Source: Desulforhopalus sp. | GTDB lineage: Bacteria > Desulfobacterota > Desulfobulbia > Desulfobulbales > Desulfocapsaceae | DNA length: 37,014 nucleotides | Reading direction: 5' to 3' | Assembly (NCBI GenBank): GCA_013139415.1 | Contig: WTAT01000395.1 | Span: 1-37,014 of the forward strand | Made by a program: the position numbers and the translations under genes | Part shown: positions 7,374 through 22,696 of the stretch, piece by piece | Position numbering within the stretch: the stretch's first letter is position 1 | Layout of the letters: every line of letters starts with the position of its first letter | The notes under the pieces: model-generated | Database searches by the model: none | Told to the model about the DNA's origin: nothing | Seen by the model: only the letters and a program-made list of their open reading frames with translations

Positions 7374-8594
7374 TCAGTTAGCTTTTTTTCGTAAATACGT
7401 TGGGGTCTCAAGATAATCATCATTCCAATTAAGAGCGTTTGCAGCTTTTCCATCAGGTGGACTTGATGAACCAAGATTTTCCAGGGTATCAAAATTAGAA
7501 CCCGGCAACGGTGTTGCTTTTGGCTGCTTATTCGGTGCAGCCGGAGTCCCTTTCATTATTGTCTTCGGCGCTTTTAACGGTGCCGGTCTACTCATGTGAT
7601 CCTCAACCGGGTCAATGGTTTCCTTTTTATCTATCATTCCACCTACCCCGGTGGCTATAACCGTTACATGCAACTCATCTCCAAGAGCATCATCATAAAG
7701 AGCCCCAATCACAACCCTCGCATCATCGTCGACCTTCTCCTGAATGAGAGCAGAAGCCTCCATAAACTCCGCCATGGTGAAACTTTCTTCCGAAGCAGAG
7801 ATGTTAATGAGCAAACCCCGTGCCCCATCAATGCCAAAGTCTTCAAGCAGCTGGTTATCGATTGCTTTCCTGGCCGCTTCGGTAGCTCGATTCTCTCCAG
7901 TCGAAGCGCCGGAGCCCATTACAGCGGGACCAACTTCTTTCATCACCGTTCTCAGGTCGGCAAAGTCAGCATTGATAAGCCCAGGTACATTTATGAGATC
8001 AGTAATGCCCTTTACCGCCTGGAGCAAAACATTATCCGCCATATGCAACATATCGGACAGTTTGCTGTTTTTCTGCATAATGGAGAGAAGTCTGTCATTG
8101 GGCACGGTAATAATTGTGTCTGCATATTTTTGCAGTTCCTGCCACCCTTGCTCGGCATTTCGGGCACGGTATTTACCTTCAAAGCTAAATGGCTTAGTTA
8201 CTACAGCGACGGTCAACGCACCCAACTCCTTGCTGGCCTTGGCAACCACAGGAGCGGCCCCGGTTCCAGTCCCCCCTCCAAGGCCTGCTGTGACAAACAC
8301 CATATCACTGCCTTTAAGAACCTCCCTTAATTCCTCCACAGACTCCATGGCAGCCATGTTCCCTGTTTCCGGATCTGCTCCTGCACCGAGGCCTTTTGTT
8401 ATACTTGGACCAATTTGAAGACAGACATCAGCCTTAGACTGATTCAATGCCTGCTTATCAGTATTGGCAACAATGAACTCTACCCCCTGAAGTCTATTGG
8501 TTACCATAGTGTTGATGGCATTGCCGCCTCCACCACCAACACCAATAACCTTCACGACTGCAACACCCTCTGATTCAGCCATCCTGAACGGCAT
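7374..8594 (-). CDS. ftsZ: Cell division protein FtsZ
   Basis: The product is 406 residues, a tubulin-like GTPase that forms the division ring. It has an N-terminal VIGVGGGGGNA nucleotide-binding loop, the tubulin signature GGGTGTG at 106-112 and the catalytic T7 loop NADFADL at 208-214. A variable linker follows, then a conserved C-terminal tail ETPTYLRKK, the docking site for FtsA and other partners. The start ATG is preceded by GGGGGAG. It is the last gene of the dcw cluster, 116 bases after ftsA, with a repeat element downstream. Nothing suggests loss of function. Confidence 0.98.
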   Translation of the reverse strand: MPFRMAESEGVAVVKVIGVGGGGGNAINTMVTNRLQGVEFIVANTDKQALNQSKADVCLQIGPSITKGLGAGADPETGNMAAMESVEELREVLKGSDMVFVTAGLGGGTGTGAAPVVAKASKELGALTVAVVTKPFSFEGKYRARNAEQGWQELQKYADTIITVPNDRLLSIMQKNSKLSDMLHMADNVLLQAVKGITDLINVPGLINADFADLRTVMKEVGPAVMGSGASTGENRATEAARKAIDNQLLEDFGIDGARGLLINISASEESFTMAEFMEASALIQEKVDDDARVVIGALYDDALGDELHVTVIATGVGGMIDKKETIDPVEDHMSRPAPLKAPKTIMKGTPAAPNKQPKATPLPGSNFDTLENLGSSSPPDGKAANALNWNDDYLETPTYLRKKAN

Positions 8595-8710: not shown

Positions 8711-9997
8711 TCACATGATTTTTTTAATCCACTCTTTCACCCTGCCGATGAAGGTGAGATCCTGTCTGGCCATTTCATTATGCGTATTTCTGCCAAAAAG
8801 AACAAGCCCCGTCGCCGTTGTACAGCGCGGGCTGTGGAGTTCTTCAACCTTACCCGATATTCCAGTCGGGTACCCTATCCTTACCGGTAAATCAAAGATC
8901 TGTTCGGCAAGCTCCACAAGATTAGACAAAAGAGCAGTCCCGCCTGTCAGAACCAGACCACCGTTGATCTTATTTTTTTGCCCTGAGGCAATCAGCTCAC
9001 TGTTCATCATCTCAAGTATCTCAATTACCCGAGCCTCAAGAATTTCGACCAGCACCTTCTGGGTTACCTTCCGTGGTTCTCGATCACCCACAGTTGGCAC
9101 GTCTACCACAAGATTTGGCTTAATAAATGAAGCAACCGCTCCACCAAAATCTTCTTTCAGGCGTTCTGCTTCCTGGAGCGGTGTGCGCAGGCCCACTGAC
9201 AGGTCATTGGTAAGATTATGCCCTCCCAGACCTATTTCGCAGGTATGACGTATAGTACCGTCACAAAAAACAGCAAGGTCAGTTGTCCCGCCCCCAATGT
9301 CAATCAAGACTACGCCTAATTCCATCTCGTCCTTACTTAAGACAGAGTTAGCCGAGGCAATTGATTCGAGAACCAGGTCAGCAACTTGCAATCCGGCCTT
9401 GTTGCAGCAAGTGACCAGATTATGTACCGCACCGATGTCTGCAGTCACTATGTGCACGTTAGTGACCAGACGAACCCCGGTCATCCCGACAGGGTTTTGG
9501 ATGCCGGTATGATCATCAACCATGTATTCCTGGGGCATGACATGGATAATACGCGTATTTTCAGAAATTTTAACGGTTCTTGCGGCGGCAATCACCTCAT
9601 CAATGTCAGCCTGTTTGATCTCCCGGTTATTTACTGCGAGTATACCGGGGCTGTTAAATCCTTTGATATGGTTACCGGCGATCCCGACATAGACATCCGC
9701 TGAGCTCAAGTCACAACCAGCTGAATCTTCGGCAAGTGCTACAGCCTGTCGAATCGAATTAACCGTGCTCTCGATGTTAACGACGATTCCTTTTTTCAGC
9801 CCCAGGGAAGGTACTGTCCCCACCCCGATAATCTCAACCCGGTCATCAAACACCTCACCGACGACACAGCAAATCTTTGTCGTTCCGATATCAAGACCGA
9901 CTATCAGGTCACCCGATTCCAGATGATCTGCATCGTTTTCCTCGGATCGGACAGCTTCAATGTCCGTAGTCATCACAGTTTTATTATTTTCATTCAT
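8711..9997 (-). CDS. ftsA: Cell division protein FtsA
   Basis: The product is 428 residues, an actin-fold ATPase that tethers FtsZ to the membrane. The phosphate-1 loop GLDIGTTKICCVVGE, the phosphate-2 region LIDIGGGTTDLAVF and the adenosine motif LTGGTALL are present. The last residues FIGRVKEWIKKIM form the expected amphipathic membrane-targeting helix. An acidic N-terminal extension of about 28 residues precedes the fold. No strong ribosome-binding site is seen before the ATG at 9997. The right-hand end of a repeat element (GGGCTTAG) stops about 8 bases upstream, so the leader is formed by the repeat. Confidence 0.97.
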   Translation of the reverse strand: MNENNKTVMTTDIEAVRSEENDADHLESGDLIVGLDIGTTKICCVVGEVFDDRVEIIGVGTVPSLGLKKGIVVNIESTVNSIRQAVALAEDSAGCDLSSADVYVGIAGNHIKGFNSPGILAVNNREIKQADIDEVIAAARTVKISENTRIIHVMPQEYMVDDHTGIQNPVGMTGVRLVTNVHIVTADIGAVHNLVTCCNKAGLQVADLVLESIASANSVLSKDEMELGVVLIDIGGGTTDLAVFCDGTIRHTCEIGLGGHNLTNDLSVGLRTPLQEAERLKEDFGGAVASFIKPNLVVDVPTVGDREPRKVTQKVLVEILEARVIEILEMMNSELIASGQKNKINGGLVLTGGTALLSNLVELAEQIFDLPVRIGYPTGISGKVEELHSPRCTTATGLVLFGRNTHNEMARQDLTFIGRVKEWIKKIM

Positions 9998-10110: not shown

Positions 10111-11127
10111 CTAACCTGATTCGATCTGTGAAACGAGCACCTTGTCGTTCAAATAATCCATCTGGATATATTCAATCTGAGAAATCGCCCCCTTGCCTTT
10201 CTGTTTTTTATATAATGTTTTCAGAACCTGTACCAGACGAGAATATTTCCTGCTCGTGTCACTGCTTCCAAAAAAGATTGGAAATGGGTGTTCAACCAGG
10301 TACACCACCATTTCTCCATCTCGGCTAAGGTGAATCTCTGATACCGATTGTGCCGGAAGATTCGGATTATTGCCATTTATCTTCTTCAGAAAAACCAGAA
10401 CCTCAGCCAGGGCCCTTTCCCTCACTGTTGGCTCATCAATGTCAGTGAGTCCTGTAATGACGGGAAAATCTATATCTGAACCCGGCCTGACCTGCATAAA
10501 CGGCAACCCTTTCCGGTTGATATATTGCAACTCAGTTCCTTTGGATGTATTACTATGTAGAAGGGCCAGCGGGATATTTTCCACAATAGAAATTTCAACG
10601 GTTGACGGCCAGTTCCGTTCCACCACGGCTCGTGCCACCGATAGGACGGATAGCAACTTTTCCTCAACCTGAGAACAGTCCAGACCAATCAGGCTCGTCT
10701 GGTGCAGGATTATTCCAGAAGCCTCACGCAATTTTTCTTCCGAGATGGTATTGGTTCCTGAGAATACAATTTCCGACACCTGGCAGTATGGTAATGATTC
10801 AAGATTATGGAGGATTAACCGCCCCCCGCCAATCAGAAGAAAGAGCAGGAGAGAAAATGCAAGAGTAGCCAATCCTGCCACCTTGAAAATAAATTTTCTG
10901 CTGCCAGCCTCTTGATATCCATTATGACTTGCCCTCTTTTTCGTTGTCAATAACTGCCTGAAGCGGGCAAGTCGTTTTTTCCGCTGTGTATATTGGCTAC
11001 TATCAAGGCTATTTTTCTCTGGGAGGGCATGCAGCTGCATCCCGCTTTTCAGATAACCGCCCCCACGCTTTTTCTTTTTTTCAAAAAGCGATAAGATTTG
11101 TTTTATTCTGAAGAGTAACATTGTCAT
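10111..11127 (-). CDS. ftsQ: Cell division protein FtsQ
   Basis: The product is 338 residues. A long basic cytoplasmic N-terminus of about 78 residues precedes one transmembrane segment (VAGLATLAFSLLLFLLIGGG). A POTRA domain follows, starting at VSEIVFSGTNTISEEKLREASG, then the FtsQ beta domain with VVERNWPSTVEISIVENIPLALL. FtsQ is a bitopic divisome scaffold linking FtsA/FtsZ to periplasmic synthesis. It starts 2 bases after murB stops. A second ATG two codons in is also possible. No ddl gene lies between murB and ftsQ, unlike in E. coli. Confidence 0.93.
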   Translation of the reverse strand: MTMLLFRIKQILSLFEKKKKRGGGYLKSGMQLHALPEKNSLDSSQYTQRKKRLARFRQLLTTKKRASHNGYQEAGSRKFIFKVAGLATLAFSLLLFLLIGGGRLILHNLESLPYCQVSEIVFSGTNTISEEKLREASGIILHQTSLIGLDCSQVEEKLLSVLSVARAVVERNWPSTVEISIVENIPLALLHSNTSKGTELQYINRKGLPFMQVRPGSDIDFPVITGLTDIDEPTVRERALAEVLVFLKKINGNNPNLPAQSVSEIHLSRDGEMVVYLVEHPFPIFFGSSDTSRKYSRLVQVLKTLYKKQKGKGAISQIEYIQMDYLNDKVLVSQIESG

Positions 11128-12057: not shown

Positions 12058-13446
12058 TCACTGTGTGTCTTTTTGCAATAATTGGAGTAATTCCTCCCCA
12101 ACTCTGACTATGTTTCCTGCCCCAAGAGTAAGGACCAGGTCTCCCGCCTGCAACATTGGCAGCAGTTTTTCCGCCATTTTCTCCAGTTCCCCGATATACC
12201 GGGTGTAACGCTGGCCATGCAATTTAGTAGCCTCAAGCAAACTTTCACCGGTCACACCCGGGATAGGTTCTTCACTGGCTGCATAAATATCAGACATGAC
12301 GAGGTAATCAGCTTTATGAAAGCAGGTTTGAAACTCTTTGAAGAGAGCCTTCGTTCTAGAATATCGATGGGGCTGAAAAAGAACCACCAAACGTTTTTGC
12401 GGCCACGCCAGTTTGATCGCCTCCAAAGTGGCCCGGATTTCCGTCGGATGATGGCCATAATCATCAACTATGGTAATCCCGGCAATTTCCCCTTTCTGCT
12501 GCATCCTTCTCTGAACTCCGGCGTAGCTTTCCAGCCCGGCCTGGATTTTTTCAAAGGAGAGATCATATTCCAGACCGACACAGACCGCAGCCAGTGCATT
12601 GTAGACATTGTGAATCCCTGGTGGTGCAATACCAATTCTGCCACGAATGCCTACAGCATCTTTTACGGTAAAATAGATCTTGCCATCCCGCCATACTATA
12701 TCATCAGCATAAATATCGGCCTGGGGTGTCAAGCCATAGGTTATCGTTCTCTTTTTTATCGACGGCAAAATATCTGCAACATTTGCATCATCCAGACAGA
12801 CGATAGCAGCACCATAGAACGGAATTTTATCGATAAACTCAAGAAACGTTGACTTAATGTGCTCAATATCCCGGTAATAGTCGAGATGTTCAAGGTCAAT
12901 ATTTGTGACAACTTCCACGACCGGTGACAATTTCAAAAAGGAGCCGTCACTCTCGTCTGCCTCAGCCACCAGATACTCACTTTCACCCAATTTGGCGTTT
13001 CCGCCAAGTGCATCGACCTTACCACCAATGACGATAGTCGGGTCAAGACCTGCTGAAGCGAGCATCCAACTGACCATTGACGTTGTCGATGTTTTTCCGT
13101 GACTGCCGGCAATAGCGATCCCATTTTTCTTCAACCGCATCAATTCTGCAAGCATCTCCGCACGCATGATCACCGGTACATTGGTCTCTTTTGCCCTGAC
13201 AAGTTCTGGATTAGTCGGTGAAATAGCCGATGATGTCACTACAACATCTGCTCCCTCCATCCACTGGCTTTGATGTCCTGTGCGGATGACGCCTCCGAGC
13301 CTTGAGAGATTTTCCGTGATGGCAGAACTATTCAAATCCGACCCTGAAACCTTGTAGCCCAGATTAAGCAACAGCTCGGCGATACCGCTCATGCCGATAC
13401 CGCCAATTCCGACAAAATGGATATGTTTGGTTTTTCTGTTCATCAT
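12058..13446 (-). CDS. murC: UDP-N-acetylmuramate-L-alanine ligase MurC
   Basis: The product is 462 residues, a cytoplasmic ATP-dependent ligase adding L-Ala to UDP-MurNAc. It has the N-terminal Rossmann motif [12 protein letters not shown], the ATP loop [12 protein letters not shown], the central [12 protein letters not shown] and the C-terminal [10 protein letters not shown] typical of MurC. Its ATG overlaps the murG stop (ATGA), so translation is probably coupled. Two adjacent ATG codons make the start uncertain by one codon. Confidence 0.97.
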
Positions 13447-14558
13447 GTGTGACGTTTCTCAATTTGCTCCAGACAACAAGAGACAATCCTTTCGGCCGCA
13501 TCAGGGAATGAGAGTCGTTTCATGGCCACCCCCATCCTATCCAATTTTTCTTCATTGTTCATCAGCTGCATAATTGTCTCGCCAAGCTGTTTTCCGGTAA
13601 GTTCCTTTTCGGTAAATTGGACAGCACCGCCGCCGGTCACATAATATTGACCATTTTTTTCCTGATGGTTATCAGCGGCAAAGGGATAGGGAATGAGAAT
13701 CGCCGGTTTACCCAATACTGCAATCTCAGACAAAGTTGTTGCCCCCGCTCTGGAAACCAGTAAATCGGCATGTTCATAAATATCGTGCATCTTCGTGAAG
13801 AAGCCGGCTACCTCGGCATCGACCCCTCGTTTCTGATATGCACTGTGTACCAGCTCTTCATCCCTGGCACCTGTTTGATGGATCACTCTGAGATCCTGCA
13901 GTTCCGCATCTGTCAAAGAACATAATGCCTCGGTGATCAATCCATTAACAGCCTGCGCACCCTGGCTTCCCCCCAGGATCAGCAGGGTTCGTTTCCCGCT
14001 TTTTCGAAACTGGGATTTTCCTGCCAGCTCAAGAATTTTGCTTCGTACCGGATTCCCTGTGTAAAGTATCTTCTCCTCCGGGAATTCTGTCCCACTCCCC
14101 GGGAGCGACAGACACACTCTATCGGCCATTCTTCCGAGTTTCCGGTTTGCCAGCCCAGGCACCGAATTCTGTTCATGGATAACAACGGGAACACCCAGAC
14201 TTTTGCCGGCTGCGACCACCGGCCCAGTAACATATCCCCCTACTCCAAAGATAATATCCGGCTGAAAACGGCGGATGATCATGAGTGCCTGAAGGAAAGA
14301 TAATGGCAGTACGATGAGAGCTTTAAGTAGTTCCAGAGGGTTCTTACCCTTCAACCCATAACACTGGATACTCTCGCTTGCAAAGCCATAGGCTCCGAGA
14401 CTTTTTGTGTCCACCTTCCTTTTTGTGCCGACAAAGAGAATGTCTGAGTTCGGCATCTGCTTCTGAAACTCCTGGGCAGTTGCCACAGCTGGAAACAAAT
14501 GACCTCCTGTTCCCCCACCAGTCAACAGAAGCCGTATTTTAGTATCTTTTCCCCTCAA
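13443..14558 (-). CDS. murG: MurG, lipid II-forming GlcNAc transferase
   Basis: The product is 371 residues, a GT-B glycosyltransferase of the inner face of the membrane that turns lipid I into lipid [13 protein letters not shown] near the start, [12 protein letters not shown] and [10 protein letters not shown] are family motifs, with [12 protein letters not shown] in the UDP-GlcNAc site. The start appears to be TTG at 14558: no in-frame ATG or GTG lies between the murD stop and the conserved [11 protein letters not shown]. The gene follows murD after only 20 bases. In the usual dcw order ftsW would sit in this gap; it is absent. Confidence 0.96.
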
Positions 14559-14578
14559 CCCACATGCCCCATATTGAG

Positions 14579-15955
14579 TTATTCCAAGTTGGTTTGCAAT
14601 GTCAATACTGCCTTTTTGAACTCGTTGCCCCTGTGGCCATAGCTGGTAAACATATCAAAACTTGCACAAGCCGGAGAAAGCAGTACCACATCTCCAGGAA
14701 CAGCGTTTCCTGCTGCTGTTGTGACCGCATCCTCCATGGATTGAACCGGGCTTATGTCCACCACTTCGGCAAGCGCATCTTCAAGGAGTCCAGTGGCTTC
14801 ACCCAACACCACCATTTTTTTCACTTTAGATACCACGCTTTCCTTTAACAAGTGGAAATCATCACCTTTATCACGGCCTCCGGCAAGAAGGATGACATTC
14901 CCCCGAAACTGGGACAATGCACCTATCACTGCACCGGTATTAGTTGCTTTCGAGTCATTATAATAGGAAACCCCGTTTACCTCAGCGACAAACTCAATGC
15001 GGTGCGGCAGGGGACAAAATGAATTCAATCCAGCCTGGGTTTCTAAGTGAGTGCAACCCTGCGAACGTACTGCCAGTATGGCCGCAGCATAATTCATCTT
15101 GGTAATATCATTGATTTGATCAGTGTCTTCCCTTCCTTCGAATATGTACTCTTCCTTCTCACCGTCCACGTCAATGGTTATCCGATTGTCACTTATAACC
15201 GCCGTAGACCCATCTTTTTTACTAAAAGTACGCACAACCGACTGCAAGTTCGGCGGAAGGTTGCTACAGAGCAAATCGTCTCCGTTAATAATTGCTACAG
15301 TACCCGACCGCTGGTGCACAAAAAGGTTCATTTTGGCCTGCACATATTTTGCCATCGAAATATGCCTGTCCAAATGATCCGGACTGATGTTGAGCAACAA
15401 ACCGACATCCGGGAAGAAATCCCCTGCACTCTCCAGTTGAAAGCTGGACACTTCCGCCACAACGATGTCGTAATCCTCTGGCTCAAGAAGATATTCATAC
15501 AGGGGAGTGCCGATATTCCCTCCAATGAACACTCTTTTTCCGGCATCCTCGAAAATTTTTCCGATGAGTGTCGTCACAGTGGTTTTGCCGTTTGTCCCAC
15601 TGACAGCAACCACGGGTACATCTATCTGCCCAGCGGCTACAGCAAATTCACCCGCGATCACTACGCCATCATCTCTTAAAGTCTTTAACAACGGGAGTTG
15701 CAGATTCACTCCGGGGCTGACAAGAAGCAGCTCAGCTTGACCTAAAAACTGGCGACTGTGACCACTCGCTTCCCATTTAATATCTGCCGTAGCTAAAAAC
15801 TCACCCTCCTCGGCAAGAAATAGTTGTTCCGGCCGATTGTCCGAGACAAAGACCTCGGCTCCGCAATGGAGACAATAACGAACTGCAGCTCGACCGGAGA
15901 CTCCCAGTCCCATTATTGCGACTTTTACGCCGGGATATATTAAAGATTCATTCAT
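14579..15955 (-). CDS. murD: UDP-N-acetylmuramoylalanine-D-glutamate ligase MurD
   Basis: The product is 458 residues, the cytoplasmic ligase adding D-Glu to UDP-MurNAc-L-Ala. It has the N-terminal VAIMGLGVSGRAAV, the ATP loop SGTNGKTTVTTL, the central SSFQLE and NISPDHLDRH, and the C-terminal YNDSKATN and LLAGGRDKG motifs. Its start sequence overlaps the mraY stop region (TAGTGATG); the ATG at 15955 is chosen over the GTG one codon earlier. It is followed directly by murG. Confidence 0.97.
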   Translation of the reverse strand: MNESLIYPGVKVAIMGLGVSGRAAVRYCLHCGAEVFVSDNRPEQLFLAEEGEFLATADIKWEASGHSRQFLGQAELLLVSPGVNLQLPLLKTLRDDGVVIAGEFAVAAGQIDVPVVAVSGTNGKTTVTTLIGKIFEDAGKRVFIGGNIGTPLYEYLLEPEDYDIVVAEVSSFQLESAGDFFPDVGLLLNISPDHLDRHISMAKYVQAKMNLFVHQRSGTVAIINGDDLLCSNLPPNLQSVVRTFSKKDGSTAVISDNRITIDVDGEKEEYIFEGREDTDQINDITKMNYAAAILAVRSQGCTHLETQAGLNSFCPLPHRIEFVAEVNGVSYYNDSKATNTGAVIGALSQFRGNVILLAGGRDKGDDFHLLKESVVSKVKKMVVLGEATGLLEDALAEVVDISPVQSMEDAVTTAAGNAVPGDVVLLSPACASFDMFTSYGHRGNEFKKAVLTLQTNLE

Positions 15956-15957
15956 CA

Positions 15958-17037
15958 CTATCGTAGTTTCAACGTGGCAATGGCCACAAGACCGAGAATG
16001 ATCGATACGATCCAGAATCTGACCACAACCTTTGGTTCATGCCATCCTTTTTTTTCGAAATGGTGATGAAAAGGGGCCATTAAAAAAATCCGTTTCCCGT
16101 GTGTCATTTTGAAGTAGCCGACCTGCATTATCACCGATAAAGCTTCCATCACAAAAATCCCGCCGACAATTGCCAGCAAAAATTCCTGTTTAATAATAAT
16201 CGCCGTGGAACCAAGTGCACCACCAATAGCCAGCGAGCCCACGTCACCCATAAACATTTGAGCAGGATAGGCGTTGAACCATAAAAAACCTAAGCATGCT
16301 CCGAAAATCGTGCCGCAGAATATTGCCAGTTCACCACTGCCCGCAACATAAGGAAGCTGCAGATATTCGGCCAGAACCACATGACCGGCCAGATAAGAAA
16401 AAACCAGATAAACCGCGGCTGTGACCACAGTTGGCCCGGCAGCCAGACCATCAAGCCCGTCTGTCAGGTTAACCGCATTCGATGCCCCGACAATTACTAT
16501 AATGGCGAAGATGATATAAAACCAACCGAGATCGGGCCGAAAATTTTTCGTGAACGGCAGACTCAACTGACCGTCAAAACCGGAATTCCAAAATATAACC
16601 ATCGCAACCACGGAGGCTCCAAGGACCTGCAGTATCAGCTTCCACCTGGCGCTTAAGCCCTTGGAGTTGTTTTTTCGTATCTTTCTCAAATCATCTAAAG
16701 AGCCAATGCAGCCATAGAACAAAGTAACAAATAAGCCCAGCCACACCAGGGAATTATCCAGCCGGGCCCAGAGCAAAGTGCCGATGGTGATTGCCGCAAG
16801 AATGAGCAAACCTCCCATGGTCGGCACCCCTTGCTTTGCCAGATGAGTCTCCGGTCCGTCGTCACGCACCACCTGGCCAATCTGAAAATGTCGCATGGTT
16901 CTAATAAAGACCTGCCCGAGTATCAATACAATCAAAAAAGCGGTAACTGCCCCGCCTATGGAACGAAATGTTATATAACGGAATACATTTAAGCCACTTA
17001 AACTGGTATGCAGCGGATAAAGAAGGTGGTACAACAT
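15958..17037 (-). CDS. mraY: MraY, phospho-MurNAc-pentapeptide translocase
   Basis: The product is 359 residues with about ten membrane helices. It transfers phospho-MurNAc-pentapeptide to undecaprenyl phosphate to make lipid I. The N-terminus MLYHLLYPL and FRYITFRSIGGA are standard. Catalytic motifs NLTDGLDGLAAGP, MGDVGSLAIGG and the HHHFEKKGW signature are present. The ATG at 17037 fits the family start; a TTG two codons earlier is less likely. A repeat element lies between murE-murF and this gene, so it may begin a separate transcript. Confidence 0.97.
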   Translation of the reverse strand: MLYHLLYPLHTSLSGLNVFRYITFRSIGGAVTAFLIVLILGQVFIRTMRHFQIGQVVRDDGPETHLAKQGVPTMGGLLILAAITIGTLLWARLDNSLVWLGLFVTLFYGCIGSLDDLRKIRKNNSKGLSARWKLILQVLGASVVAMVIFWNSGFDGQLSLPFTKNFRPDLGWFYIIFAIIVIVGASNAVNLTDGLDGLAAGPTVVTAAVYLVFSYLAGHVVLAEYLQLPYVAGSGELAIFCGTIFGACLGFLWFNAYPAQMFMGDVGSLAIGGALGSTAIIIKQEFLLAIVGGIFVMEALSVIMQVGYFKMTHGKRIFLMAPFHHHFEKKGWHEPKVVVRFWIVSIILGLVAIATLKLR

Positions 17038-17180: not shown

Positions 17181-20100
17181 TCAAAAATCAATAAGTTCGG
17201 CCACAATTGTCTCAAAGCTCAGACCTCGGGAAGCCTTTACCAGGACAACATCATCTTGTCCTAATTTTTCGCAGTCAATCATTTCGCTTATCCACCTGGT
17301 CGCATCCACTTTCTCCTCAAACATATGGATGCGCCCTTTATCAAAACCGTGGTCAAGGGCACCCTGTACCACATTTTCCTTAAATTCTCCAACAACTCCA
17401 ACACAATCAATGGCCAATTCGGCAATTAATTTTCCAATATCATAATGAGCCTGCCTGGAAACAACACCAAGTTCACGCATGTCGCCGATAATCCCGACCG
17501 AAGTTTTTTTAGAAATATTTTTCAATGTTCTCAACCCGGCTGCCATTGAGGCCGGATTGGCATTGTACGTATCGTTTATTATGGTGAAACCGGATTTGGC
17601 CCGGAGCATCTCCATACGTTTATCAGGAGGCCTGAAATCTGCAAGTCCTGCTGCAACGTGCCCTAGTGTTGCTCCTGCTGCAAGACAGATAGCGGCGGCA
17701 CAAAGGGCGTTGGACACATTGTGTTCGCCGGCAATATTGAGGTGAATTCCGACTGTATCCTCTGCATGGTGCAAGGTGAAGGTAATGACGCCACCTTCTT
17801 TCATGTGGATAGCCGAAGCCCAAACATCCGGCCTTTTGTCCGGCTCCTGCTGTCCTCCTTCGCCATGCACTGCAAAAGTGATTTTTCGATTATTATATTT
17901 TCTGGACAGCTCCAGGACCCTGATGTCATCAAGGTTGACCACCAGTATTCCTGAGTCTTTGGTAACGGCAAAAAGCTCTTCTTTAGCCTTGGCTACTCCC
18001 TCAATCGACTGCAGCCCCTCAAGATGTGCCCCATAAATGTTGGTTATACAGCTTATATCCGGGTCGGCTATAGAACCAAGTCGATTGAGCTCACCCGGCT
18101 GGTTCATACCCATTTCCAGCACAGCTGCACGATCCCCAACGTCAAGAGGCAGCAGCGACAGGGGCAAGCCGATGAGATTATTAAAATTTCCTTTAGTTTT
18201 GAGAAAACAGTCAGGGGGAAAATCGGGTCCTTCCGGCCACATCCTGGCAAGTACCGGGGCAATCATCTCTTTAACTGTGGTTTTTCCGCAGCTACCGGTA
18301 AGCCCAATGACCACCTGTTCACATTGCCCGGCCAGTGCTCTTCTGCGAAAGGCCGCCAGATCCCCCAACGCCTGCAGGGTATCTTTAACTTCTACCTGAC
18401 TAACTTCCATCTCTGCAGGCAGAGCAAGCAACTTCTCAACCACCAGACAGGAAGCACCATTTTCCACCGCCTGTCGGGCATAGTCATGGGCATCATGGTT
18501 TTCCCCTTTCAGGGCGACAAAGATCCCATCCCTGCTGGCACCCCTGCTGTCGGTGATAACAGGGCCCAGCAATTTTAAATGGCCCGATCCAGGCCGCAAT
18601 TTGCCATTGACGGCAACCGCGACCAACTCAGCCGTCCAGGAAAACAAAACTCCTTGTGCTTCCTGTCGATCATCAAAAAAACGTTTTCCCTGAGACGTCA
18701 ATTGGTAGGGTTCATGACCTTTTCCGGCAATAACGACAATATCCCCAGATGACGCCGCTCGAATGGCTGCGTCGATTGCCTCCTTTCTGTCACGAATGAC
18801 TACACTTCCACGATCTTTACAGTTTCTTGCCGAAAGCCATTCAGGGTCCTTCACTTCCAGGGGGGTCTTTTTTAGACCGGCAAGAATTTGTCTCACTATC
18901 TGGTCAGGGTCTTCAGTGCGTGGGTTATCATCGGTTACCACGGCAACATCACATACCCTGCCGGCAATCTCGCCCATCAGCGGCCGCTTGCCCTTATCCC
19001 TATCCCCGCCACAGCCAAAAACACAGAAAAGCTCTCCATGGGGTAGAGCAGCCACAGTTGTCAGAACTTTCTCCAAAGCATCCGGGGTGTGGGCATAATC
19101 AACCAACACTACCGGCCCTTTTGAATCCCAACCAGGACCGGCGGTAACTCTTTCAACTCTGCCGGGAGCGCCGGTCGCCGTGGCAAGGGCACTGCAAATA
19201 AGTGCCTCATCAATACCCATGCCCAAACAGAGCCCGTATACAGTCAATATATTATCGACATTATAACGTCCTACGAGAGGAGATGAGAGAGTATGCTCAC
19301 CAGAAGGGGTTAATATAACTGTATCAGTCCTATCGAGTGTTGAGGAAAAATTCTTTAGCTGAATATCCGCCCCTTCACCTTCTCCCCATTGTATCGTTTT
19401 TTTGCAGTTTTTTTCACAAATCCCATGCAACAAAGAAAGCCATTCCCTGTCGTCAGTTCTCCCCAAAGAAACAGGAAGGATTGTTGTCCCAGCTTCCTTC
19501 ATATGCTCGGAAAACAGTCTGATTTTTGCCCGAAAATAATCTTCCATATCCGCGTGGTAATCCAGATGATCCCGGGACAGATTGGTAAACGCAGTGACAT
19601 CGAACATTATGGAGCCTATCCGCGATTGAGCAAGGGCGTGGGAAGATACCTCCATAATCACATAGTCCACGCCATTATCGACCATCTCCCTCAGCAGCTC
19701 CTGAAGCAAAAAAGCTTCCGGGGTAGTAAACCGGGTTTTCAGAATCTTTTTTTCACCACTCCTGCCGGTAAATCTGTTATTGACCGTACCGATAACTCCG
19801 ACAGTTAACCCCGCCTGCAGCAGCACATGTTCAAGAAGGTAGGTAACTGTCGTCTTACCGTTGGTCCCGGTGATACCGATGAATTGCAATTTTTCTGCAG
19901 GCCGCCGAAAATAATTTGCAGCTACAGCTGCATATGCTCTGGCTGTATCTTCCACCTCGATTACAGTTGCCTGTAGATCTCTCGCCTGTGCTGTAGTTAA
20001 TTTTCCAGGCCCACAGACAATCGCCCGACATCCGGCAGCAACAGCTGCCTCTATAAAATCGTGACCATCACGTACAACCCCCGGAAGCGCGACAAAAAGA

Positions 20101-20261
20101 CTATCAGCGGTAACTTCTCGTGAATCAGCAGTGATCGAGGTGATCAATTGGTCATCCAGCGACCTATCAGAAAGGGAACAGACAATATTGAATTTCTGCC
20201 CCTTAAGAAGAGATGCGAATGTATTAGGTATAAATGTATTAGGTACTTTGTATGATAACAT
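17181..20261 (-). CDS. murE-murF: MurE-MurF fusion: meso-DAP-adding and D-Ala-D-Ala-adding ligase in one chain
   Basis: The product is 1026 residues in a single uninterrupted frame. Residues 1 to about 542 are MurE: TADSREV near 44, ATP loop TGTNGKTT at 131-138, the carbamylated-lysine region FRAKIRLF, the DNPR motif at 445-448 that selects meso-diaminopimelate, and GKGHEPYQ. A short joint leads to MurF from about 543: ITDSRGASRDGIFVALKG, ATP loop TGSCGKTT at 655-662, LEMGMNQPGEL, and NDTYNANPASM. Consecutive cytoplasmic steps adding DAP and then D-Ala-D-Ala are thus joined. Both ATP sites look intact. The N-terminus carries an in-frame 15-base duplication giving PNTF twice. No good ribosome-binding site precedes the ATG; a repeat element ends about 11 bases before it. 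Such fusions are known in some other bacteria such as Bordetella. Confidence 0.95.
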   Translation of the reverse strand: MLSYKVPNTFIPNTFASLLKGQKFNIVCSLSDRSLDDQLITSITADSREVTADSLFVALPGVVRDGHDFIEAAVAAGCRAIVCGPGKLTTAQARDLQATVIEVEDTARAYAAVAANYFRRPAEKLQFIGITGTNGKTTVTYLLEHVLLQAGLTVGVIGTVNNRFTGRSGEKKILKTRFTTPEAFLLQELLREMVDNGVDYVIMEVSSHALAQSRIGSIMFDVTAFTNLSRDHLDYHADMEDYFRAKIRLFSEHMKEAGTTILPVSLGRTDDREWLSLLHGICEKNCKKTIQWGEGEGADIQLKNFSSTLDRTDTVILTPSGEHTLSSPLVGRYNVDNILTVYGLCLGMGIDEALICSALATATGAPGRVERVTAGPGWDSKGPVVLVDYAHTPDALEKVLTTVAALPHGELFCVFGCGGDRDKGKRPLMGEIAGRVCDVAVVTDDNPRTEDPDQIVRQILAGLKKTPLEVKDPEWLSARNCKDRGSVVIRDRKEAIDAAIRAASSGDIVVIAGKGHEPYQLTSQGKRFFDDRQEAQGVLFSWTAELVAVAVNGKLRPGSGHLKLLGPVITDSRGASRDGIFVALKGENHDAHDYARQAVENGASCLVVEKLLALPAEMEVSQVEVKDTLQALGDLAAFRRRALAGQCEQVVIGLTGSCGKTTVKEMIAPVLARMWPEGPDFPPDCFLKTKGNFNNLIGLPLSLLPLDVGDRAAVLEMGMNQPGELNRLGSIADPDISCITNIYGAHLEGLQSIEGVAKAKEELFAVTKDSGILVVNLDDIRVLELSRKYNNRKITFAVHGEGGQQEPDKRPDVWASAIHMKEGGVITFTLHHAEDTVGIHLNIAGEHNVSNALCAAAICLAAGATLGHVAAGLADFRPPDKRMEMLRAKSGFTIINDTYNANPASMAAGLRTLKNISKKTSVGIIGDMRELGVVSRQAHYDIGKLIAELAIDCVGVVGEFKENVVQGALDHGFDKGRIHMFEEKVDATRWISEMIDCEKLGQDDVVLVKASRGLSFETIVAELIDF

Positions 20262-20314: not shown

Positions 20315-22204
20315 CTAGTCTTTTTCAAGCAATTCCTTCGAAAATTTCCAGGGAACTACACTTTCTTGCGTTTCAAGAAACAACACACATTCGGTTATTC
20401 CTTTTAAGGAACTACCCGGTCGCGGCTTCTGATCGATGACTCTTCCAGTTCCCTGAAGATTAATCTCCAAGCTCATTCCCTGCAACAGACGAAGACTTTT
20501 TCTAAGACTCAACCCCTTAAGGTCCGGCATGACTCTGACTATAGTTTTTTTCCCTTTCGGTATTATCGCAATACCAGAGTACTGAGCGGTGAACCTGTTT
20601 TTCCCCTGATAATTTTCCTCATCACCAACTTCAAGTTCAACCACATCTGCTACAGACTTGGCGATTTGCTGCAGCACAGAGATCCTCTCAACCTTCTCTT
20701 CTACAATCTGCTCAAGACTTTTTTTCTCTTTGACGCCATGCCCTTTCATTCCCACAGGGGCTCGTTGAACGACAACCAACATATTCAAGTCATTGCTTCC
20801 GGCAGGTATAGTTACAAAAACCATATCATTAATGAAGAATTGCCGGTAATCGCCACTATCAACACTGAGTAAAATATCATCTCTGAAAAAATATGAGCCT
20901 GAGGCTCCCTGTCTGGCCTGACTGCGAAAAAGAGACTTGATGAGATGGCCTCCAGTTTCAGTCCAACTGTCCGACTGCCGGCCGGCCTGTTCTTCTGCGG
21001 AGAGTTGGGTTTCCATCCCCGTATCTTTATCAAAAATTTTTTTTACCACAAAGGGACGTATTTTTTTACCCTCATTGAGCAGAACAGAGTAGGTCGTAAG
21101 TAGGCTCAATGGGGTTGCGGACTCCGGCACAAAGCCGAAATACGTCGTAGATGTCATTACAGGTTTCTGCTGGCTCGCTGCCGTTTTTTCAGATGGTATC
21201 GGCACATGAAAATCAGTACCCGACGATTCCTCTAACCCAAGCCATTCCCACAAACGCAATTGGTGACCAAGATTGTTATCATCTGAGGCCAAGCTCCAGG
21301 CAGAAGGTGAAACACCATTCAAACCATACGCATGCAGCATTGTCGCATCCCGCAGGAAAAGACGAAACTTGGGAGGCATACAGAAAGGAACAAGAGCCAT
21401 ATTTTCGGTCTGCTCTTGAGAATATTTGGCAAAAATATTGGGATTAAACCCCGGCAGGTTGGCTCCGCCAATTATTTCCCCGGTTCCGCTTTCCATAAGA
21501 TACGCCATAACCTTTTCGGCCTGTTCATTTAAAGCGATATCTTTAACAAGATTTTCCAGAATGTCCTGTATTTTTAGATCAATGGTCAGTACAAGATCCA
21601 GCGCGGCACTGAGAGACTGCTTCTCTTCCTGTTGTTTTAGTTTTCTGCTGGCCAGAAGTCGATCATAGTAAAATTCCACCCCGGAAAGACCGATACCATT
21701 CTCAACATAGCCGATAAAGTGAGCAGCCTTTAAATCGTTTGGATAAAACCTTTTATCGTCTCTTTGTAAATACACTCCCGGAAGCTGTAGATCCTTAATG
21801 GCAACTTCCTGCTCCTGACTTATATCTTGTGCTATCCAGACTCGCAGCACCCCACTTTCCAGCTGATCCTCTAATTTGGCACTGTCCAGGCCCAACACCT
21901 TGCTGAGGTGTGTCGCCGCTTCCTGGATGGAATCAATCTCCCGGATTCTTGCGTACACCGAAACCCGTTCCAGAGTTACCGCAAGCTGCTTAAGATTTCT
22001 GTCATAAACTGTTCCCCTGACAGGAGGCTGCTGGGAGAAGGTGTTTTTTATGGTGTGCAGAACCTCTCTTACAGAAGTGGTGATTCCATAGTGTTGTTCA
22101 AGCTGATGACCAACGAATCCCAGCACCACCAGAATCAATAAATACAGAATTACCCGCCTCCCCTTTTTTTGCTTCTGCATTCTGAGGCGGGATTTTTTTA
22201 TCAT
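20315..22204 (-). CDS. FtsI/PBP-like protein with PASTA domain, transpeptidase motifs degenerate
   Basis: The product is 629 residues, placed where ftsI belongs. A basic N-terminus and one membrane anchor (about 18-34) precede the PBP dimerisation domain (PVRGTVYDRN, 61-70), the pedestal (GLSGVEFYYDRLL), a transpeptidase-fold region (about 205-485) and one PASTA domain (about 555-612, with MPDLKGLSLRKSLRLL). The active-site motifs are not canonical: where EPGSxxK should be, the protein reads VPFCMPPK (residues 272-279), with Met at the serine position; the KTG position reads DSG (449-451, SVDSGDY); the SxN region reads SLASDDNNLG with no SxN. The segment between the first two motifs is also shortened. 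The frame is intact, so this looks like a retained scaffold rather than a decayed gene. Cys275 is one position off the nucleophile site. Confidence 0.85.
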   Translation of the reverse strand: MIKKSRLRMQKQKKGRRVILYLLILVVLGFVGHQLEQHYGITTSVREVLHTIKNTFSQQPPVRGTVYDRNLKQLAVTLERVSVYARIREIDSIQEAATHLSKVLGLDSAKLEDQLESGVLRVWIAQDISQEQEVAIKDLQLPGVYLQRDDKRFYPNDLKAAHFIGYVENGIGLSGVEFYYDRLLASRKLKQQEEKQSLSAALDLVLTIDLKIQDILENLVKDIALNEQAEKVMAYLMESGTGEIIGGANLPGFNPNIFAKYSQEQTENMALVPFCMPPKFRLFLRDATMLHAYGLNGVSPSAWSLASDDNNLGHQLRLWEWLGLEESSGTDFHVPIPSEKTAASQQKPVMTSTTYFGFVPESATPLSLLTTYSVLLNEGKKIRPFVVKKIFDKDTGMETQLSAEEQAGRQSDSWTETGGHLIKSLFRSQARQGASGSYFFRDDILLSVDSGDYRQFFINDMVFVTIPAGSNDLNMLVVVQRAPVGMKGHGVKEKKSLEQIVEEKVERISVLQQIAKSVADVVELEVGDEENYQGKNRFTAQYSGIAIIPKGKKTIVRVMPDLKGLSLRKSLRLLQGMSLEINLQGTGRVIDQKPRPGSSLKGITECVLFLETQESVVPWKFSKELLEKD

Positions 22205-22297: not shown

Positions 22298-22696
22298 CTA
22301 TCGAGGATAACTGAAAGATCCGGATCGTCTGTTAAACCTTCCCACCTGATCTCCTGAATCTATCTGTAATGCTAACTTCTCTCCGGCCAGTTTCTGTATA
22401 TTAACGGGTGCCCAAAGCCTTGCTTTGCGGGCAAGCATTTCAATGTTTTTATCCATCAGTTCGTGCCGTTGATTATCGACACTGACAATCGAACGTTCAA
22501 CACTTGTGACCTCAGATGCTATAAACATATTTATAATCAAAACCAAGGGAAAAATCATCAACAGAACCCTACCAACAGGTTTCCACAAAACCAGCCACCC
22601 GGACAGATCTACTAGATCCCCGGGCCGAAAGTACTGCCGCAGTCCAACCTTGGCGACAGACCGCATATACGCTTCTGAAGAATTATTATAGTTCAT
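22298..22696 (-). CDS. ftsL: FtsL-like divisome protein
   Basis: The product is 132 residues with one transmembrane segment (about 43-61, VLLMIFPLVLIINMFIASE) followed by a short heptad-like periplasmic stretch and the LWAPVNIQKLAGEKLAL motif common to FtsL-type proteins (a small hydrophobic motif about 40 residues after the membrane). FtsL sequences are poorly conserved; the call rests on size, topology and position between rsmH and the ftsI-like gene. A strong ribosome-binding site GGGAGGA lies 6 bases before the ATG. In known divisomes FtsL binds FtsQ and FtsB and activates FtsWI. Confidence 0.8.
   Translation of the reverse strand: MNYNNSSEAYMRSVAKVGLRQYFRPGDLVDLSGWLVLWKPVGRVLLMIFPLVLIINMFIASEVTSVERSIVSVDNQRHELMDKNIEMLARKARLWAPVNIQKLAGEKLALQIDSGDQVGRFNRRSGSFSYPR

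Follow-up and report, generated by a model that had tools for sequence, protein, structure and literature searches.

The protein P0001, encoded at the ftsI position of the dcw cluster in the 37,014 nucleotides of Desulforhopalus DNA that were analysed (here called the window), is almost certainly non-catalytic, to judge from its sequence: it lacks the SxxK, SxN and KTG motifs of a competent FtsI/PBP3. As far as the sequences compared can tell, a motif-less FtsI appears to be the order-wide state in the sampled Desulfobulbales, cable bacteria included, and FtsW appears to have been lost together with the active site of FtsI. In the majority of bacteria with a cell wall, the FtsW-FtsI pair is regarded as the central synthase of the septum; in an order without FtsW and with a dead FtsI, another enzyme must build the dividing wall.

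RESULTS

An FtsI-like protein in the dcw cluster

The window holds a dcw cluster with the order mraZ, rsmH, ORF at the ftsL position, P0001, fused murE-murF, mraY, murD, murG, murC, murB, ftsQ, ftsA and ftsZ, in which MraZ scored under its curated cut-off. P0001 lies at the expected ftsI locus, between murE and an ORF that is named ftsL by position only and gave no match in a Pfam search. The features relevant here are as follows.

20315 to 22204, minus strand: putative FtsI-derived pseudoenzyme P0001, 629 amino acids (ORF, Pfam and joint alignment)
22088 to 22165, minus strand: predicted anchor helix, residues 14-39 (helix in the AlphaFold model)
21620 to 22033, minus strand: pedestal (PBP_dimer), about residues 58-195 (Pfam PF03717, 56.8 bits at 59-188; conservation)
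20765 to 21619, minus strand: degenerate transpeptidase fold, about residues 196-480 (Pfam, AlphaFold model and alignment)
21359 to 21370, minus strand: SxxK place, codons 279-282, with Lys in the Ser column and Leu in the Lys column (joint alignment)
20369 to 20539, minus strand: PASTA domain, about residues 556-612 (Pfam PF03793, 27.7 bits at 558-601; conservation)
22298 to 22696, minus strand: ORF at the ftsL position, 132 amino acids (position only)
17181 to 20261, minus strand: fused murE-murF (NCBIfam murE and murF above cut-off in a single frame)
14579 to 15958, minus strand: murD, upstream flank of the empty ftsW place (NCBIfam TIGR01087 above cut-off)
14559 to 14578, no strand: murD-murG junction, 20 bases, where ftsW is usually expected (ORF positions)
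13443 to 14558, minus strand: murG, downstream flank of the empty ftsW place (NCBIfam TIGR01133 above cut-off)
10111 to 11127, minus strand: ftsQ, proposed partner via FtsQLB (Pfam POTRA_1 and FtsQ_DivIB_C)
8711 to 9997, minus strand: ftsA (NCBIfam TIGR01174 above cut-off)
7374 to 8594, minus strand: ftsZ (NCBIfam TIGR00065 above cut-off)

The frame of P0001 is open over 629 codons, as had been stated in an earlier reading of the DNA made from the letters alone (the sequence-only reading); it runs on the minus strand, from an ATG start at 22204 to 20315. The strings RGTVYDRN, VPFCMPPK and DSG (residues 449-451) quoted there are all present in the translation, and the codon of Met276 is indeed ATG on the complementary strand. 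The PASTA domain that it had seen was recovered by Pfam; the transpeptidase-like fold was recovered as a partial Pfam Transpeptidase match (model positions 130-192 of 299; 22.1 bits, which equals the cut-off) and by structural comparison. In the latter, the AlphaFold model of P0001 (mean pLDDT, 80.8) matched SpoVD best (Z 32.5 over 411 residues, 3.4 Å) and also matched FtsI of the FtsWIQBL complex of Pseudomonas aeruginosa (8bh1_B; Z 30.5 over 402 residues, 4.1 Å). The predicted structure thus indicates that the fold of a class B PBP is retained; a shared fold shows no function. The N-terminal helix presumably acts in the membrane, as its position and hydrophobicity suggest, and with this anchor, the pedestal and the transpeptidase fold P0001 has the architecture of FtsI. 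It is not MrdA (101.3 bits with NCBIfam pbp2_mrdA, cut-off 455; the MrdA of the same genome scored 728.5) and not SpoVD (124.6 bits with NCBIfam spoVD_pbp, cut-off 688).

Loss of the active-site motifs

The motif positions were located in a joint alignment of 19 canonical FtsI proteins with 102 distinct degenerate orthologues, 98 of them counted with the order of the window and 4 belonging to different families of the phylum. In P0001 the SxxK serine column is occupied by K279 and the lysine column by L282, and the SxN columns are occupied by G313 and Q315; the KTG column lies near D443-L445 and is the least certain of the three placements. In the AlphaFold model the helix after the SxxK place begins at residue 278, in agreement with the K279/L282 register. 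The sequence-only reading had put Met276 at the serine position with K279 as the retained lysine, a register that is off by three; K279 is not conserved. It had also equated KTG with DSG at 449-451, which is not where the alignment puts this motif. What it had concluded from these strings, that all three motifs are altered, nevertheless holds in the joint alignment: the Ser-Lys pair of SxxK was found in 19/19 canonical proteins and in 0/102 degenerate proteins. Since the orthologues share this state, a sequencing error is ruled out.

Spread through the Desulfobulbales

Orthologues were searched for in 57 genomes, including that of the window; of the 21 order-level genomes outside its family in this search, 14 had their sequences retrieved. 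A match was found in 56, the exception being G022, in which no FtsI match was found, and the aligned orthologues of 49 genomes, read by eye, are without the motifs in the three regions. Among the best 80 of 325 relatives in a genome scan, 69 were degenerate and 11 canonical (74 of these 80 loci were contained in the structure alignment; L142 and L163 are partial sequences). The 11 canonical relatives are titled Desulfobacterales, Deltaproteobacteria, Aerophobetes, Omnitrophota or "bacterium", and none of them bears a title with Desulfobulb- or Desulfocaps-. Among the degenerate relatives are Desulfopila, Desulforhopalus, Desulfoprunum, Desulfofustis, Desulfosediminicola and Candidatus Electronema. 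The last is a cable bacterium, and going by record titles and general taxonomy, these genera together represent the order Desulfobulbales. In G028, a one-contig genome, the FtsI orthologue is split over two frames (L043, 321-2194); these were kept apart and excluded from the count of distinct proteins and from the selection test.

A survey of cable bacteria reported ftsW, zipA and ftsN absent from two Candidatus Electrothrix and two Desulfobulbus genomes. It lists FtsI with the proteins that are brought to the division plane, and for Escherichia coli it describes a septum synthesised through FtsI activity; its passages concerned make no mention of missing catalytic motifs in FtsI (PMC7873302). 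In the literature searched, which was mostly open access, no account of a naturally occurring, catalytically dead FtsI from these bacteria was found. The absence of ftsW is thus already known in part, whereas the pseudoenzyme state across the order and its coupling to the loss of FtsW appear to be new.

FtsW and the single SEDS protein

The usual place of ftsW is between murD and murG. Measured from stop to stop, the murD-murG distance was at most 610 bases in 50/50 degenerate loci that hold both genes and 808 to 1172 bases in four canonical loci. A scan with a SEDS profile built from 13 of 30 loci gave a SEDS frame in 5 of the 80 loci (best 80 of 325 relatives), all of them canonical; the six other canonical loci lie on contigs of 4 to 8 kb. 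In the same set, a long frame matching the murE-murF fusion was observed in 51/69 degenerate loci versus 0/11 canonical loci, several of the latter being short contigs.

Across 116 genomes of the order, the SEDS family PF01098 was matched in 113, with one row in 110 and two rows in three. In two of these three (G046 and G076) the rows are pieces of one gene, and in the third (G106) they are a full copy and a stub of 26 positions; two complete SEDS genes were found in none of the 116 genomes. The SEDS gene starts within 4.5 kb of mrdA, the gene with a strong PBP_dimer match, in 105/113 genomes. In the remaining eight, the two genes are on different contigs (four genomes), a strong mrdA match is missing (three) or the distance is 5.2 kb (one). 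In G046, a one-contig genome, rodA lies in two frames beside an intact mrdA (L229, 13156-14288), which may be decay or a sequencing error. The SEDS protein of the window's genome is RodA (NCBIfam, 409 bits, cut-off 336.7) and not FtsW (308 bits, cut-off 337.5); as the assembly (637 contigs, 93.85% complete) contains only this one SEDS protein, no FtsW partner of P0001 was found in it. The absence of ftsW from cluster and genome had gone unmentioned in the sequence-only reading, to which the order-wide state was not visible.

Related states in other families of the phylum

Among 113 genomes of the phylum outside the order, 82 had two or more SEDS matches, 27 had one and 4 had none; in one genome, G185, neither a SEDS nor a class B match was found. 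Class B proteins were examined in 16 of the 27 single-SEDS genomes. Four had a dead FtsI (three in family f31, one in f69), seven had MrdA only, two had only an intact FtsI-like protein and three had both types intact; FtsI was canonical in three two-SEDS controls. The seven with MrdA only (G166, G203, G170, G206, G171, G207 and G237) had an FtsQ POTRA match and no FtsI that could be found, and judged by gene content, division in these lineages seems to proceed with no FtsW-FtsI pair. The two with the intact FtsI-like protein, G160 and G164, had one class B protein that scored as FtsI type and has both SxxK and KTG intact; MrdA was not found in them. In the last three (G144, G161 and G210), both class B types have an intact SxxK beside a single SEDS; these are drafts with a short mrdA frame (434 to 495 amino acids), and a second SEDS was possibly missed in the assemblies. 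In G144, a draft of 450 contigs, the single SEDS gene adjoins mrdA while FtsI is intact, so that FtsW is the SEDS not found there; either the draft lacks ftsW, or the loss of FtsW preceded the death of FtsI. A strict rule that one SEDS means a dead or lost FtsI was rejected; G144, G161 and G210 are exceptions to it.

In a tree of MrdA (21 rows) the backbone was without resolution, and G241, which has a dead FtsI, grouped with G207 and G171, in which no FtsI was found, at 100/99. A single origin of all degenerate proteins was not adopted, since this tree cannot give the number of origins. Related states, either a dead FtsI without FtsW or one SEDS with no FtsI found, occur in other families of the phylum.

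Other enzymes of wall synthesis

PBP_dimer matches numbered two in 106 of the 116 order genomes, one in nine, none in one and three in none; a third PBP_dimer protein as a replacement for FtsI was thus found in none of the 116. A search for another class B PBP with intact motifs, suggested by the sequence-only reading, led in the window's genome to MrdA/PBP2 beside rodA and to no second FtsI in the assembly. No SEDS protein other than RodA was found there, and MrdA alone among the class B proteins has its motifs intact; class A enzymes are also present. Of 20 stretches inspected (20 of the 110 genomes with a strong mrdA match), 18 have both mreB and mreC upstream of mrdA, the other two being cut by contig ends.

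GT51, the class A type domain, was matched in 116/116 order genomes and in 14/15 genomes outside the order. The miss was G231 of family f31 (90% complete, 280 contigs), which has a dead FtsI and two congeners with GT51. GT51 was also present in 3/3 two-SEDS controls, and its presence therefore does not single out class A enzymes. FtsQ was found in 22/22 genomes examined, whatever the state of FtsI; eight of these were single-SEDS genomes in which no FtsI was found (G240 was counted among them by analogy with its family). Retention of FtsQ is thus independent of the pseudoenzyme, and neither GT51 counts nor FtsQ served as discriminators. L,D-transpeptidases were rejected as a general replacement crosslinker: they were found in 13/14 genomes, including three canonical controls, and not in G159, which has a dead FtsI. 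Also rejected was G072 as natural proof of septation by a class A enzyme. This genome (99% complete) gave no SEDS and no MrdA match, but matches to MreB, HemH and ApgM were missing as well, and it thus proves nothing on class A septation. An assembly gap over the mre-mrd-hemH region is likely; since apgM is found on separate contigs in G056 and G080, one gap may not account for every missing match.

DISCUSSION

Which enzyme builds the septum?

P0001 shares with FtsI/PBP3 the position in the dcw cluster, the anchor, the pedestal and the fold, and differs from it by the missing motifs and by a genome in which FtsW was not found. In other bacteria the pedestal of FtsI contacts FtsQLB. FtsW is present in Bacillus subtilis. 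In this organism an inactive laboratory mutant of PBP2B (S309A) still supports division structurally, and PBP3 is then essential (PMC5656894). The likeness to P0001 would lie in an inactive septal class B PBP with a structural role, but the mutant is engineered and acts beside FtsW and PBP3, whereas the state in the Desulfobulbales is natural and extends over the order, with no third class B protein detected.

In vegetative cells of Clostridioides difficile, the core synthase of the divisome is a class A PBP (PMC10693644), which acts in septation, and the organism has one SEDS-class B PBP pair for elongation (PMC10693644, PMC12713402). Like C. difficile, the sampled Desulfobulbales have no canonical FtsW-FtsI pair, as the SEDS, PBP_dimer and motif counts indicate. 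C. difficile keeps a dcw-encoded SpoVE-SpoVD pair for sporulation and is without FtsA (PMC10693644, PMC12713402), whereas in the Desulfobulbales the SEDS gene of the dcw cluster is gone, its class B PBP is dead, and the window contains both ftsA and ftsQ. The class A enzyme PBP1b of E. coli is under repression by FtsBLQ, which FtsN relieves (PMC6325244). PBP1 of Staphylococcus aureus, a division PBP, is like P0001 a PASTA-bearing class B PBP; it has a role beyond transpeptidation and PASTA domains that bind peptidoglycan, but its transpeptidase activity is also needed (PMC9426605).

The precedents in C. difficile, E. coli and B. subtilis suggest septal synthesis by a class A enzyme, with RodA-PBP2, encoded in the mre operon, for elongation. 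P0001 would keep its membrane anchor, pedestal and transpeptidase fold as an inert body, and its PASTA domain may bind peptidoglycan; having no class B PBP active site, it should not crosslink. Its place would still be in the FtsZ-FtsA-FtsQ(L) divisome, where it would serve structure and regulation and recruit or switch on a class A PBP, which would polymerise and crosslink the septum, while RodA-PBP2 with MreBCD would elongate the cell. From these comparisons we infer the location in the divisome, the binding to FtsQLB and the class A enzyme as septal synthase. That P0001 is a scaffold or regulator of the divisome is probable; for a class A enzyme instead of RodA-PBP2 as the main septal synthase, the balance tips only slightly in favour, and the complete scheme stands at little better than even chances. 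The widest version, in which the entire order, cable bacteria included, has swapped FtsW-FtsI for a septum made by a class A PBP and governed by an FtsI pseudoenzyme with no enzymatic role, we put forward tentatively, at a little under even.

The main rival is that RodA-PBP2 makes both side wall and septum and that the dead FtsI recruits or tunes it at the septum. The window's genome has no SEDS besides RodA and no intact class B protein besides MrdA, nearly all sampled genomes of the order have both, and it has been suggested that dead class B PBPs may still activate their SEDS partner in other bacteria (PMC12713402). G231 favours RodA-PBP2 at the septum as well, since a dead FtsI without a GT51 match, here in a draft of 90% completeness, counts against the class A model. 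On the other hand, the location of mrdA-rodA in a standard mre operon fits a plain role in elongation rather than both jobs. We consider septation by RodA-PBP2 a real possibility, with perhaps one chance in its favour for every two against.

A conserved body around a dead active site

Could P0001 have left the divisome for another role in the envelope, for example as a peptidoglycan sensor via PASTA? Identity across the order compares with that in canonical FtsI as follows: pedestal, 0.37 versus 0.40; transpeptidase region, 0.25 versus 0.46; active-site strip, 0.24 versus 0.57; PASTA, 0.45 versus 0.31 (the canonical set being unchecked for PASTA). The two sets, 17 and 19 sequences, differ in breadth, and the comparisons are therefore rough. 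Conservation in the degenerate proteins is thus roughly equal to that of canonical FtsI for the pedestal, higher for PASTA and lower for the dead domain. That PASTA is the best-conserved part would fit another role, but the gene has kept its location in the dcw cluster and the pedestal is near canonical conservation, and a departure from the divisome is improbable.

Still less credible is a catalytic site moved to other residues, by which P0001 would still be a transpeptidase. T207, D209, K211, E217, S304 and D331 are each conserved in at least 60% of 98 degenerate proteins, and loose S..K...SxN or K[TS]G strings are present in some. These strings, however, share no position, no conserved Ser/Lys pair was found when one was sought across the transpeptidase region of the degenerate proteins, and relative to canonical FtsI, conservation has dropped most in the former active-site strip. 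An SxxK elsewhere in the domain, common to the relatives, which the sequence-only reading had named as evidence against its view, was not found; the sole PGSxxK-like string of P0001, PRPGSSLK, sits inside PASTA, where the family consensus is PGTxLK.

Selection was analysed in 14 of 47 pairs, with protein L094 used twice. In 12 close degenerate pairs pN/pS was 0.13 to 0.37 in the transpeptidase region, 0.14 to 0.35 in anchor and pedestal and 0.11 to 0.32 in PASTA; two canonical pairs gave 0.19 and 0.23 in the transpeptidase region. Short segments were more variable, with up to 0.66 in the active-site strip and 1.17 in the linker of one pair. Purifying selection still acts on the dead transpeptidase domain. 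A decaying pseudogene, for which the orthologue split between two frames in G028 might speak, is refuted for the order as a whole by this test, in which pN/pS is well below 1 in every domain of the 12 pairs except that one linker, and has next to no probability given the long open frames in the other 55 of the 56 matched genomes (some cut by contig ends).

The sequence-only reading had proposed a non-catalytic scaffold that kept its divisome role. Its first part is borne out by the sequences, and the role in the divisome is still a deduction; the absence of the Ser-Lys pair in 102/102 proteins, the fold, the dcw position, the conserved pedestal and PASTA and the purifying selection together support a protein that is non-catalytic and has kept a role.

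Meaning for division in the Desulfobulbales

A large clade without the septal polymerase would thus carry a dead crosslinker whose body selection has kept. This would be a natural separation of the structural from the catalytic role of FtsI, which so far has been studied in engineered mutants (PMC5656894, PMC12713402). Drugs specific for the division PBP are predicted not to block division in Desulfobulbales, and the question of which enzyme builds the septum in these bacteria, cable bacteria included, becomes directly testable.
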